Source: Alistipes sp. (GTDB lineage: Bacteria; Bacteroidota; Bacteroidia; Bacteroidales; Rikenellaceae). Taken from it: a stretch of 54,157 nt of DNA. The stretch covers positions 1 through 54,157 of the forward strand of contig JAFQOR010000018.1 of the NCBI GenBank assembly GCA_017403125.1. Direction: 5' to 3'. How positions within the stretch are numbered: position 1 is the first letter of the stretch; every line of letters starts with the position of its first letter. A model generated the notes under the pieces. The model did no database searches and was not told where the DNA came from. It saw nothing but the letters and a program-made list of their open reading frames with translations. Both the position numbers and the translations under genes were made by a program. This document shows, piece after piece, positions 19,517 to 27,187 of the stretch.

Positions 19517-20698
19517 CTAATCAAACGGATAGGCGGCAACGAAGCACTCCGGAGTGCGTAGAGCCTCCTGACACGCTTTGAGGTTGGCAAGCGACACATC
19601 GCCAACGATGTAATTATACTCATCCGAGGTGTACTGTTCGCGTATCTGGTGGAAGGTCAGCAGGTCGCGCTGCTCGGCGGTTTTATAACGGAAGTATATG
19701 CGGAAGCGGTGGTCGTTAGTATAGGTCGGTAATACCGAGTCGTTGCGCTTCTTATACTCGTAGCGATAGTTATAGGCGCAAGCTGTGATGTCACTCAACA
19801 CCGCCGAGCCTGTGGGGTGTCCGCCGGCACCACGTCCAAACATAAACTGCTTGTCGTAGAACAGCCCTTTGATAACCACACCGTTGAACTCATCCTCGAC
19901 GCTATAAATATACTTGTTGCGCGAAATGAGCTGCGGGATGACACACATAAAGAGTTTGTCATCAACCTTTTCGACATGTGCAACGAGCTTTATGCGGCGC
20001 TCTTTCTCGCGCGCAAAACGAATGTCCGAGTCGTTCATTGTTGATATGCCGTATGTAAAAATCTCGTCCGGAGCAACATAAACACCAAAGGCGTGCATTG
20101 TGACGATGATAAGTTTGAAGAGCGAGTCCCAACCATCTATATCGAGCGTGGGGTTGCTCTCGGCAAAGCCGAGGTCCTGCGCGAGTTTTAGGGCGTCGTT
20201 GTAGGACATGTGCTCGTTGAAGATCTTCGACAGGATGAAGTTCGACGAGCCGTTAAGGATGCCCTTTACCGAGCACAATAGATCGTTGTCGTAATACTCT
20301 TCGAGGTTGCGTATTACGGGGATGCTGCCGCATGCCGAGGCGTCGTAGAGTAGCGCGGTGTTGTACTGCTCTTGCAGATCGATAAGCTCGATAAGGTGGT
20401 GACCGAGCATCTTCTTATTTCCGGATACTACGGGTATGCGGCTCTTCAAGGCTCGCTTTACGATGTCATAAGCAGCTTCGGCATCGTCGATGAGTTCGAC
20501 GATAAGGTTGATATCCTTATCGCAGAAGACATCGTCGGGGTTATCCGTGAAGTCGGCATCTACGCTACGCCTCTTGTGTATATCGCGTACGCATATACGT
20601 TTGATATGCACGTTATCCGAATCGATGCGTTTCAAGACATCGTAGAGACCCTGTCCTACGGTGCCGAATCCAAAAAGTCCTATGTTAAGATGTTTCAT
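19517..20698 (-). CDS. hom: Homoserine dehydrogenase
   Basis: The 393-residue enzyme reduces aspartate semialdehyde to homoserine with NAD(P)H, the branch point to methionine and threonine. The N-terminal Rossmann motif GLFGFGTVGQGLYDVL is clear. VVSGNKKMLGHHLIEL, GILNGSSNFILSKI and the family signature region LAQDLGFAESNPTLDIDGWD follow, with the catalytic Lys in the usual place. There is no fused aspartokinase. It is the third gene of the metY-metX-hom operon, 15 bp after metX, which gives one transcript for homoserine supply, acetylation and sulfhydrylation. Confidence 0.95.
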   Translation of the reverse strand: MKHLNIGLFGFGTVGQGLYDVLKRIDSDNVHIKRICVRDIHKRRSVDADFTDNPDDVFCDKDINLIVELIDDAEAAYDIVKRALKSRIPVVSGNKKMLGHHLIELIDLQEQYNTALLYDASACGSIPVIRNLEEYYDNDLLCSVKGILNGSSNFILSKIFNEHMSYNDALKLAQDLGFAESNPTLDIDGWDSLFKLIIVTMHAFGVYVAPDEIFTYGISTMNDSDIRFAREKERRIKLVAHVEKVDDKLFMCVIPQLISRNKYIYSVEDEFNGVVIKGLFYDKQFMFGRGAGGHPTGSAVLSDITACAYNYRYEYKKRNDSVLPTYTNDHRFRIYFRYKTAEQRDLLTFHQIREQYTSDEYNYIVGDVSLANLKACQEALRTPECFVAAYPFD

Positions 20699-20713: not shown

Positions 20714-21733
20714 TTAGTGTGCTAAAAAGTTCTTAATAATCGCATTTAGTTTATCGTGTTCGACCAGAAAACCATCGTGTCCAAACTCCGACTCGATGAT
20801 GTGAAACTCCGCTCCGGCGATATACTCTTTCAGGGGTTGGTGCGCCTCGACAGTGAAGAGAATGTCGGAGGATATGGCTACGACCAATGTTCGTGCCTTA
20901 ATGCGTTGCAAAGCCTCGGCTATGGAGCCTCTGCCTCGCGCTATGTTATGTGAATCGACCGCTTCGGAGAGGCGGTAGTAGGAGAGGGCGTTGAAGCGTC
21001 GTCGTAGCTTCTCGCCCTGATACTGTTGGTAGCTGTGTGCGCGACGCTCGAACGAAGCCTCCTCGACATTGGTGAGCTCTTGCTGCGTAGCGTTGTAGGC
21101 AGCGCCACCCCGATAGCTTATCAGGGCTATGCTTCGAGCGACTGCCATGCCGTCCAAACCTGCGTCATCGCGTAGCTCTCCCCATGTTGGATCAAGACGT
21201 ATTGCCATGCGTTGTGACTCGTTGAAGGCTGCTGCCCATGGCTCCGAGCAGGGGGTTGTGGCGATGAGTGCCAGCGACTCGGCGAAGTCGGGCTCCATGA
21301 TTGCCCACTCCATGCACTGAAAGCCACCTATTGAGCTGCCTATGAGTAGTTTAACGTGCTCGATACCCAAATGGTGGGCAAGCACCTGATGGCAGCGTAC
21401 CATGTCGCGTACCGAGATGCGTGGGAAGTCGTAGTACCACTTCTTGCCAGTTTGTGGATTTATGGCGAGAGGCGACGTCGTGCCGTAGTGCGAGCCAAGG
21501 AAGTTGGCGCACACGATGAAGTAGCGGTTGGGGTCGAGGAAGCGCCCCTCTTCGACGGTGTGTGGCCACCAATCTGCCACGTCGGAGTTTGCCGTGAGAG
21601 CGTGGCATACCCATATCACGTTATCCTTTGTCGGGGAGAGCGTGCCGAAGGTGTCGTAGGCTATATCAAGCTCCGGAAGCCTTTCGCCCGACTCCAATTC
21701 GAAGGGGTGTGGATGGTGATAAAGTTGGCTCAT
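20714..21733 (-). CDS. metX: Homoserine O-acetyltransferase
   Basis: The 339-residue alpha/beta-hydrolase transfers the acetyl group of acetyl-CoA to homoserine. The nucleophile elbow reads LIGSSIGGFQCMEW. The Asp is in ISSDILFT and the His in SEFGHDGFLVE near the C-terminus. It lacks the CBS tail seen in some family members. The gene starts 2 bp after the metY stop, so translation is coupled. Its product is the substrate of MetY. Confidence 0.94.
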   Translation of the reverse strand: MSQLYHHPHPFELESGERLPELDIAYDTFGTLSPTKDNVIWVCHALTANSDVADWWPHTVEEGRFLDPNRYFIVCANFLGSHYGTTSPLAINPQTGKKWYYDFPRISVRDMVRCHQVLAHHLGIEHVKLLIGSSIGGFQCMEWAIMEPDFAESLALIATTPCSEPWAAAFNESQRMAIRLDPTWGELRDDAGLDGMAVARSIALISYRGGAAYNATQQELTNVEEASFERRAHSYQQYQGEKLRRRFNALSYYRLSEAVDSHNIARGRGSIAEALQRIKARTLVVAISSDILFTVEAHQPLKEYIAGAEFHIIESEFGHDGFLVEHDKLNAIIKNFLAH

Positions 21734-21735
21734 CG

Positions 21736-23016
21736 CTACACGTTTTTAAGTGCTTGTTCGTAGTCGGCAATAATATCCTCCACATTCTCCAAACCGAGTG
21801 ATACACGCAGTAGTGTTGGGGTTATGCCCGCAGCGCGCTTTGCCTCGTCGGACAACTGCTTGTGGGTGGTTGATGCGGGGTGCGTAACGACCGATATCGA
21901 GTCGCCAATCATGGTCATGTTAGCCGACAGTTTTAGGCTCTCAACAAAGCGTACGGTGCTCTCTAATGTCCCTTTAAGTTCTATGGTCAGCACTGCCGAT
22001 GCCCCAAAGCGGAAGTACTTCTTCGCTAACTCGTGGCTTGGATGGTCTTCGAAGCCAACGAAGCTGACGCGCTCCACCTTTGGGTGGTTGCGGCAGAACT
22101 CTGCAAGACGATATGCCGACTCCACTTCGTGCTTTACACGTAGCGATAGTGTTTCGAGTCCGAGCAGCATCAAATATGAGTCAAACGACGAGGGGCAACA
22201 TCCGAAGTCGCGCATGCCATCAACTCTACACTTGACAATAAACGCTTGGCTACCAAACGTCTTGTGTAGATTAAGACCATGGTATCCCTCCGAGGGACCA
22301 TCAATTGCGGGGTACTTGCCACATCCCCAGTCAAAGGTTCCGCCATCGACGATGATGCCTCCCATGGCGGTGCCGTGACCATTTATCCACTTTGTAGCCG
22401 AGTCGGTGATGATGTCGGCGCCCCACTCAAAGGGGTTGCACAGGTAGCCACCCGCACCAAACGTATTATCCACGATCAGAGGCACATTATTGGCATGTGC
22501 AACCTTTGCGAGAGCCTCGATGTCGGCCACGCGGCATGTGGGGTTGCCCATCGACTCAACAAATACAGCACGCGTATTATTATCTATGAGTGCTGCAATA
22601 TCCTCTTTCGAGTCGCTTTTTGCCATGCGACAGTCTATGCCAAGGTTGCGCAGCGAGATTACAAATTGGTTGTGCGTACCACCATATAGGTAGGGCGATG
22701 TTACGATGTTCTGTCCGGCTTGTGCAAGGGCGGTAACGGTGAGTAGTATCGCCGACATTCCCGATGCTGTTGCCAAGGCTCCAACACCACCATAGAGGGC
22801 TGCTATGCGCTCCTCATAGGCCGAAGAGGTGGGGTTGTGCAGACGTGTGTAGATGTTGCCTGCCTCGCTGAGTGTGAATAGGTTGGCGGCATATTCGCAT
22901 GTGGGGAAGTGGTAGGCGGCTGTTGGATGTATGGCTATGCCGCGTGAGTTTGTGGCATCGACGTGATAACCGCCGTGTATTTGAAGTGTCTCGAATTGTA
23001 AATTACTCTTTTTCAT
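21736..23016 (-). CDS. metY: O-acetylhomoserine sulfhydrylase (aminocarboxypropyltransferase)
   Basis: The 426-residue PLP enzyme makes homocysteine from O-acetylhomoserine and sulfide. Family signatures: FETLQIHGGYHVD at the start, YTRLHNPTSSAYEERIAAL, FVESMGNPTCRVADI, and the PLP-Lys motif SATKWINGHG. The start at 23016 (MKKSNLQFETLQIHGG) is chosen. The frame is open back to an ATG at 23145, but that 43-residue extension is unlike the family and lies in the regulatory leader. It is the first full gene of the operon, downstream of the Met-rich leader peptide. Confidence 0.94.
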   Translation of the reverse strand: MKKSNLQFETLQIHGGYHVDATNSRGIAIHPTAAYHFPTCEYAANLFTLSEAGNIYTRLHNPTSSAYEERIAALYGGVGALATASGMSAILLTVTALAQAGQNIVTSPYLYGGTHNQFVISLRNLGIDCRMAKSDSKEDIAALIDNNTRAVFVESMGNPTCRVADIEALAKVAHANNVPLIVDNTFGAGGYLCNPFEWGADIITDSATKWINGHGTAMGGIIVDGGTFDWGCGKYPAIDGPSEGYHGLNLHKTFGSQAFIVKCRVDGMRDFGCCPSSFDSYLMLLGLETLSLRVKHEVESAYRLAEFCRNHPKVERVSFVGFEDHPSHELAKKYFRFGASAVLTIELKGTLESTVRFVESLKLSANMTMIGDSISVVTHPASTTHKQLSDEAKRAAGITPTLLRVSLGLENVEDIIADYEQALKNV

Positions 23017-23160
23017 TGCTATATAATATGTTCTATAAATAATCTGCCTATGCCGACATGCCCCATAGTCGTAGGACATGTCGTTGTTGTGTTTTTGGTT
23101 GGAGAGTTCGCTCCCGATAGGAGCAGGTGGCACGTAGCTACCCATCGATAGATTTGGTGC
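23017..23160 (-). promoter_or_regulatory. Structured leader between leader peptide and metY
   Basis: The transcript holds three similar arms: GTGCC in the last codons of the leader peptide, GGCAC right after its stop, and GTGCC about 25 nt further on. Thus 1:2 and 2:3 hairpins exclude each other, as in attenuators. Further hairpins are GCTCC/GGGAGC (about 23113-23128) and GACATGTCC/GGCATGTC (about 23050-23080). No obvious U-run terminator is seen, so control may be translational or Rho-based. Confidence 0.5.
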
Positions 23161-23325
23161 CTAACGGCACATTCGCATATACATAGTCGCCATATATGCC
23201 ATCATTTCCGATGCCATAGCCATGCGTCGTGTTGTTCGATGGGTCGTTACACAAGCACCATTACCCTGTGCCGACTCCTCTGACAACATCGCAACCGGGT
23301 CTATTATGTTATTGCGTCTTCTCAT
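23161..23325 (-). CDS. Methionine-rich leader peptide of the metY operon
   Basis: A 54-codon ORF starts just after the operon promoter and ends 144 nt before metY. The peptide has 10 Met; eight fall in residues 35-52, the stretch RMAMASEMMAYMATMYMRMC just before the stop. Such a run of control codons is the hallmark of ribosome-mediated attenuation, as in the trp, his and leu leaders. Stalling at Met codons when charged Met-tRNA is scarce would change downstream folding. The stop codon lies inside the first hairpin. The biosynthetic product of the operon is methionine, matching the control codon. I know of no standard annotation for it. Confidence 0.75.
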   Translation of the reverse strand: MRRRNNIIDPVAMLSEESAQGNGACVTTHRTTRRMAMASEMMAYMATMYMRMCR

Positions 23326-23343
23326 TTAGATTGGTTGGTAATG

Positions 23344-23375
23344 CAAAAATAGATATTATTTCTTAATTATGCAAA
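23344..23375 (-). promoter_or_regulatory. Promoter of the methionine operon
   Basis: On the minus strand TTTG (23372-23375), a 20-bp spacer and TATTTTTG (23344-23351) form a full -33/-7 pair. Transcription should start near 23337, about 12 nt before the leader-peptide ATG. Confidence 0.7.
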
Positions 23376-27022: not shown

Positions 27023-27187
27023 TTACATGTAATCCTGCATCATGTCCATACCCTGCTGGTAAGCATCCTGGCTCATCTGCATACCCTGCTGCATAGCGGC
27101 AGCAGCAGCCTCCTCGGCCTTCTTCTTGTCATCGTTACAAGCAACAGCAACAGCACAAACTGCCAACAAAACGAAAAGCTTTTTCAT
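27023..27187 (-). CDS. 54-residue lipoprotein
   Basis: This is a short gene easily missed by length filters. The peptide begins MKKLFVLLAVCAVAVACNDD, a lipoprotein signal with the lipobox Cys at residue 17, then DKKKAEEAAAAAMQQG and a Met/Gln/Tyr-rich tail ending GMDMMQDYM. It has its own -7 box (TATCTTTG on the minus strand, about 27228-27235) and its own terminator, so it is very likely real. The start of the mature part resembles the repeat lipoprotein at 153-656. Function is unknown. Confidence 0.75.
   Translation of the reverse strand: MKKLFVLLAVCAVAVACNDDKKKAEEAAAAAMQQGMQMSQDAYQQGMDMMQDYM

Follow-up and report, generated by a model that had tools for sequence, protein, structure and literature searches.

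Candidate methionine-sensing leader ORFs ahead of metY-metX-hom in Alistipes and behind SAM-I riboswitches in other Bacteroidales

Methionine regulation in bacteria is usually described in terms of SAM riboswitches, T-boxes or repressors, and ribosome-mediated attenuators of the Yanofsky type are familiar from the trp, his, leu, thr and ilv operons. Mycobacteria possess leaderless short ORFs with polycysteine tracts, for which we know of no equivalent of the two hairpins (P1 and P2) or of the SAM riboswitch described below. According to the excerpts of the following sources, long 5' untranslated regions of B. thetaiotaomicron contain short ORFs that resemble leader peptides (PMC7366714), conserved RNA structure is absent before the Met operons of Actinobacteria (PMC1262725), the SAM-II element has few occurrences in the Bacteroides group (PMC1273637), a SAM-I riboswitch from Xanthomonas also binds uncharged initiator tRNA, directly at its expression platform (PMC7270179), and tandem riboswitches are treated without the word leader (PMC12452182). 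Among the matches listed from full-text literature, which lay largely outside subscription journals and preprints and included PMC9373788, PMC4833913 and PMC3766115 in excerpt, no description of attenuation through a Met-codon leader, or of a SAM riboswitch combined with a Met leader, was recognised, in keeping with the suggestion of an earlier note on this DNA that a Met-codon attenuator in Bacteroidota would be new or little known.

The leader of metY-metX-hom

The window, by which we mean the whole 54,157-nucleotide stretch of Alistipes sp. DNA that was analysed, carries on its minus strand genes for an O-acetylhomoserine sulfhydrylase (metY, 21736..23016; TIGR01326, 557 bits, passing the cut-off of 495), a homoserine O-acetyltransferase (metX, 20714..21733; TIGR01392 as best match, 338 bits, below the cut-off of 500) and a homoserine dehydrogenase (hom, 19517..20698; NF004976, 302 bits, passing the cut-off of 205), profile matches that bear out the metY-metX-hom assignment of the earlier note. 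Upstream of metY and on the same strand, the ORF list gives the proposed leader ORF of 54 codons followed by TAG (23161..23325), which ends in MAMASEMMAYMATMYMRMCR and then the stop and has Met at positions 1, 13, 35, 37, 41, 42, 45, 48, 50 and 52. Counting confirms eight ATG among the 18 codons 35-52, just ahead of the stop (the Met-codon tract, 23170..23223, minus strand); over codons 33-51, ATG occurs seven times in frame and not at all in the other two frames. The probability of at least eight Met in 18 is 2e-8 for an assumed Met frequency of 3% and a stretch that was picked post hoc; a chance Met run was rejected on the in-frame ATG excess across 53 homologous leaders, presented in the next section.

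The promoter that had been read upstream was also found, with a -33 element TTTG (23372..23375, minus strand) 20 nt ahead of the -7 element TATTTTTG (23344..23351, minus strand) and a spacing of 18 nt from the latter to the leader ATG. The TAnnTTTG motif of the -7 element is kept in homologous leaders, being present upstream of 51 of 53 against 6.6 expected, and in 46 of these 51 the first in-frame ATG follows it by 15-30 nt. Judged from sequence only, the motif and the order of the parts fit co-transcription of the leader ORF with the operon. The region 23018-23360 folds with a z of -2.8 relative to the average of 100 shuffles. Neither the window nor its own genome (about 88% complete) contains a match to the SAM riboswitch family RF00162, and no T-box match to Rfam was found in the window or in the 58 relatives' loci that were scanned. 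Elsewhere in the window, a lipoprotein-like ORF of 54 residues (27023-27187, minus strand) has a Met- and Gln-rich C terminus (MQQGMQMSQDAYQQGMDMMQDYM) and no Pfam match.

Homologous leaders and their hairpins

Regions upstream of metY were compared in 110 loci of the family sample (30 + 80), in the best 80 of 193 named loci, 78 of them labelled Alistipes or Rikenellaceae and many from ruminant metagenomes, and in 61 loci of the order sample; many of the genomes compared are metagenome assemblies. Leaders of the window's type (type B) were defined by the string CGAATGTGCC, which misses divergent relatives, and an automatic second class (Met-run) by at least four ATG within 15 codons ahead of a stop. 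The family set comprised 28 loci with the type B core, 11 with a Met run only and 71 with neither (one of 110 on the reverse strand), the named set (best 80 of 193) 51, seven and 22 (none on the reverse strand), and the order set none, five and 56 (one on the reverse strand); L089 and L090, counted as neither by the automatic rule, belong on closer analysis to the type A leaders discussed below. Deduplication reduced type B from 79 to 71 loci and then to 53 non-redundant ones.

The inspection of relatives' metY upstream regions for Met-run ORFs had been recommended with the original reading. Over the 20 codons before the core, the 53 type B leaders contain 145 ATG in 1060 in-frame codons, a count that may include the leader's own start ATG, against eight in 1007 and none in 1007 in the +1 and +2 frames; in 300 shuffles the in-frame count averaged 38.7 and never exceeded 57. 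Across these 60 nt no stop interrupts the reading frame in 52 of 53 loci, and the other two frames stay open in 14 and 21. Two leaders (L056 and L070) have no ATG in these 20 codons and 12 of the 53 have a single one; the core itself encodes two Met, also in loci that are poor in upstream ATG. Together, the in-frame ATG excess, the open frame and the promoter spacing give the anatomy of a translated leader in which Met codons matter, and on this comparison we consider it highly probable that the ORF is translated and that its Met codons are under selection. That it might encode a functional Met-rich small protein, as Met and Cys at its C terminus could hint, is hardly credible: the leader peptide has zero matches in Pfam, its N-terminal part is conserved, by eye, in close relatives only, RNA structure overlaps the stop, and in the type A relatives a terminator lies right behind the ORF.

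The ORF ends within a near-invariant core, ATGCGAATGTGCCGNTAGGCAC (23157..23178, minus strand), which encodes MRMCR and the stop. A search of the family genomes found 76 core sites in 75 of 268 Rikenellaceae genomes, representing six of 22 genera, and all 30 of the 30 sites read (L118-L147, the window's own included) precede metY. In samples with few Rikenellaceae genomes the core was found in the window's own genome only (one of 395 in the phylum sample and one of 198 in the order sample); within that genome, the window leader is the single exact site and six others have two mismatches. The core was rejected as a DNA operator of a regulon, the search with up to two mismatches having given one site per genome except in G789, which alone has two (on contigs C26 and C70).

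The core contains the hairpin P1, GTGCC-GTTA-GGCAC (23157..23170, minus strand), and the stop TAG (23163-23161) overlaps its loop, an arrangement absent from the earlier note. Loop variants include GCTAA with a TAA stop (L012), TCTAG (L184) and CTT in place of CGN (L056), and in L063 TAG is lost and the frame terminates four codons later. The hairpin and a stop are thus conserved, the stop also in L012 and L184, and the loop letters vary. A second hairpin, P2, GGTAGC-TACGT-GCCACC (23126..23142, minus strand), starts 14 nt after P1 and has a conserved pentaloop. A loop of the form YA[CTA]GN with at least five of seven pairs was found in 45 of 53 type B loci. The distance from P1 to the start of this loop is 18-22 nt in 44 of the 45, and the stem varies on both sides; the paired fraction of 0.92 versus 0.65 is inflated, the 45 loci having been preselected for at least five of seven pairs. 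The P1-P2 region folds with a mean z of -2.9 across the 53 loci, against 0.12 for the 80 nt ahead of 26 metY genes hand-picked as leaderless controls, and the 60 nt preceding the core are also better folded than shuffles (mean z -1.07, 53 loci). A loop-loop contact of P2 (UACGY) with core GCG, noticed by eye, was discarded since it fails for the loops CAAGU, UAAGC and CACGA.

Such conservation raises the alternative that P1-P2 is a metabolite- or protein-binding RNA, that is, a new riboswitch type, to which the ORF would be incidental. The position of P2 is nearly fixed and its loop conserved, and 71 of 76 core sites match all 21 fixed bases exactly, a count biased by the two mismatches that the search tolerated; the wobble positions are fixed as well (CGA, TGC), which goes beyond the needs of codon sensing. 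We nevertheless regard this alternative as unlikely, given that the ATG enrichment spans 20 codons 5' of the core and is confined to the frame, that the stop is kept where the P1 loop varies (L012, L184), with L063 still ending soon after its lost TAG, and that an Rfam scan of the window leader returned no family at gathering score and, at E values up to 10, three chance-level matches.

The earlier note had suggested that arms GTGCC/GGCAC/GTGCC form mutually exclusive hairpins. All three are present in the window (23170-23166, 23161-23157 and 23133-23129), but the third is exact in only four of 53 loci, and as a general mechanism the three-arm switch did not survive 11 duplex tests on type B, which gave mean z values from -0.54 to 0.18 and no strong alternative pairing. 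Five of the 11 tests lie 2 to 3.6 standard errors below zero, and 17 of 53 loci have some 5-bp match to GGCAC past P1 where 9.0 would be expected, which is a weak excess; a weak or lineage-specific pairing switch may exist in type B. Pairing of the 5' arm of the core with upstream sequence is not above shuffles (z -0.16, 53 loci), and in the window an upstream CGGCACA is complementary to the core. Intrinsic terminators were found in one of 53 type B loci against 0.4 expected, a chance-level count on which a hidden terminator in type B was rejected. A switch of the trp type, built from these arms and a hidden terminator in the window leader, is therefore very doubtful.

Between P2 and metY lies a C-rich, G-poor stretch (23074..23106, minus strand); across the 71 type B loci, the 20-60 nt behind P1 have C fractions of 0.27-0.39 and G fractions of 0.10-0.20, a composition that makes this tract a possible Rho loading zone. 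Just ahead of metY stands a 12-bp hairpin (23054..23083, minus strand) that is not followed by a U tract. The P2-to-metY region has a mean z of -1.2 in the 53 loci versus 0.12 in the 26 leaderless controls, and several other type B leaders were seen to have a hairpin in the zone shortly before metY.

Relatives with terminators and riboswitches

Thirteen relatives (L029, L030, L038, L040, L043, L052, L082-L085 and L088-L090), designated type A, have a Met-run ORF without the core, for example MMMMMVMCNRTCRV. Their final 25 codons contain 79 ATG in frame against zero and one off frame. An intrinsic terminator follows the ORF in 13 of 13 (0.7 expected by shuffling), those of L040 and L084 having been located by a separate terminator search since other hairpins were top-scoring there, and the last codons (GCCGGGU and variants) are complementary to the 5' arm of the terminator, with a mean z of -2.3. 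The last Met codon lies 24 nt before the stop in nine of the 13 and 39 nt before it in L089 and L090; in L040 and L084, Met is the last codon. Six of seven further named Met-run loci share the type A terminator, and in L213 it was not found by the pattern used for these loci. The anatomy of type A is that of a textbook attenuator, with a Met run, a predicted antiterminator and an intrinsic terminator: a ribosome that had reached the stop would mask the antiterminator strand, keeping the operon off, and one stalled at the Met codons would free that strand and turn the operon on. The claim that the window leader is a Met attenuator thus stands as regards a coding-conserved Met leader with fully equipped relatives, and falls short in type B itself at the three-arm switch and the terminator.

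In three type A leaders (L038, L082 and L085), a small hairpin, possibly a pause site, was seen by eye just 5' of the Met run. L284 and L265, from two other families, each have two tandem Met-rich ORFs within 450 nt of a metY-like gene, with a terminator-like hairpin and U run after each ORF, by eye; complementary strands picked out in the same way, GUAUUACC/GGUAAUAC in both and GCAAAGG/CCUUUGC in L284, are candidate antiterminators.

A coupling of such leaders to SAM-I riboswitches across the order, which the earlier note did not contain, emerged from the RF00162 matches, present in five of 268 Rikenellaceae genomes and in 64 of 218 order-sample genomes under stricter filters that may lose weak riboswitches. 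In G014 (L056) and G021 (L070) the riboswitch lies directly 5' of the MRMC leader of metY, placing both candidate sensors in one leader; these are the two type B leaders whose 20 codons preceding the core hold zero ATG. In the order, 70 of 73 SAM-I sites were read (L294-L363, which overlap with L235-L263). Six aptamers lie 12-20 nt ahead of a long ORF that starts like MetH (L301 was tested and is MetH-like), 54 precede a short ORF and 10 have no ATG in the first 34 nt. Leader ORFs were assigned by the ATG nearest +13, which biases their offsets; in a separate, unselected count an ATG occurs 9-15 nt behind the aptamer in 51 of 70 sites, compared with eight at 24-30 nt and four at 39-45 nt. Leader ORFs and MetH-like starts share their spacing to the aptamer, which points to control of leader-ORF initiation by the riboswitch.

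The short ORFs behind the aptamers also tend to end in Met codons. In the 45 ORFs of at least 14 codons, a count that omits the nine shorter ones of the 54 and the 10 loci lacking an early ATG, the last 12 codons contain 88 ATG in frame versus four and five; after deduplication (n = 43) the figures are 83 versus four and five, with a shuffle mean of 19.5 and a maximum of 31. At least one Met codon is present in 39 of 45 and at least two in 32, the six without being L298, L331, L332, L344, L354 and L363. Tails include MDMRGMRM, SMDMRCMR, MPLMPMCMRR and SMRMRPCAQ, and the DNA of the L314 tail, RRMRMCRVNRMR, holds the first 14 bases of the type B core. In L303, L308 and L319, a MetH-like gene lies 96-137 nt past the aptamer, after a short ORF without a Met tail. 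Genes following the SAM-linked leaders include, by motif labels, metY, aspartate kinase and kin of cystathionine synthase/lyase, with gene identity tested for L297, L298, L299 and L310. RNA around the leader stop has a z of -0.99 compared with -0.07 to -0.60 at eight neighbouring positions, and intrinsic terminators in SAM-linked leaders are at chance level (one of 45 against 0.9 expected).

The window has the Met-codon ORF and lacks the SAM-I aptamer, so that it does not have the architecture of an aptamer followed at 9-15 nt by an ORF; by comparison with these loci, its leader looks like a riboswitch-less descendant of the SAM-linked arrangement. The same comparison bears on whether the MRMCR tail could act as a nascent-peptide arrest sequence like TnaC, the stall at the stop being triggered by a small molecule (SAM or Met, for instance) and not by a lack of Met-tRNA. 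Type B, itself chosen by the core string, shows almost no variation in the peptide tail and the stop. The 13 type A leaders and most SAM-linked leaders, however, keep their Met codons without MRMCR, and the fixation of synonymous positions is not predicted by peptide sensing, making arrest of this kind a quite improbable explanation.

Proposed mechanism and known systems

What comparison of sequences shows is the reading frame and the selection on its Met codons, the order of promoter, ORF and metY, the two hairpins P1 and P2 and, among relatives, the predicted complete attenuators. We propose that the leader is very probably a ribosome-mediated methionine sensor of metY-metX-hom, and that its signal is very probably the charging of Met-tRNA, a shortage of Met switching the operon on. 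Translation of the leader ORF would begin close to the 5' end of the transcript, and the ATG tract at its C terminus would serve as a string of control codons. A ribosome short of Met-tRNA would park in this tract, just before and inside P1, and the parked ribosome would turn the operon on; with ample Met, the ribosome would reach the stop in the P1 loop and depart. As type B lacks an intrinsic terminator, we tentatively place the off-step in Rho-dependent termination or in decay of the leader RNA that the departing ribosome leaves unprotected, an assignment to which we give somewhat less than even weight.

For the order as a whole, a two-signal leader has slightly the better of the argument: a SAM-I riboswitch would gate a short ORF ending in Met codons, SAM and Met-tRNA would be read serially, and ribosome parking, not an intrinsic terminator, would be the output. 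The ancestral leader ORF probably came immediately after a SAM-I riboswitch, by which its start codon was gated; within the Rikenellaceae, the lineage of the window would have lost this riboswitch and enlarged its Met tract, and one branch would have re-evolved a terminator attenuator.

If true, this proposal would have the ribosome reading Met codons for methionine control in a phylum in which leader-peptide attenuation is merely hinted at in the excerpted text of PMC7366714, and many families of a gut-rich order would have a riboswitch and a ribosome sensor joined in a single leader. The leaders with both sensors, with the Met leader only, and with the Met leader and a terminator would form a natural series from which to learn how regulators interconvert, type B posing the problem of an expression step that has no terminator to explain it. 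Leader ORFs of this kind would also give a purpose to short ORFs that annotation may overlook.

The window leader resembles the Yanofsky attenuators in that its ORF lies close to the 5' end, that the control codons match the product of the pathway and that a biosynthetic operon follows, a likeness that in the type A relatives extends to antiterminator and terminator. It differs from them in that Met would be sensed, in having neither an intrinsic terminator nor a strong conserved switch pairing, and in placing the stop inside a near-invariant hairpin. The polycysteine ORFs of mycobacteria likewise carry a run of sulfur-amino-acid codons in a leader ORF, although for cysteine and in another phylum. 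With a Met-specific T-box the leader would share the sensing of Met-tRNA charging, the proposed sensor here being the ribosome. SAM-I riboswitches (S-box, RF00162) also control methionine genes, whereas the genome of the window has no match to them and only five of the 268 family genomes do. In the Xanthomonas SAM-I riboswitch, the sensing of SAM and of Met-tRNA is joined in one leader, as we propose for the Bacteroidales; the excerpted text mentions no leader ORF (PMC7270179), and in the leaders described here the sensing would be achieved by translating Met codons.
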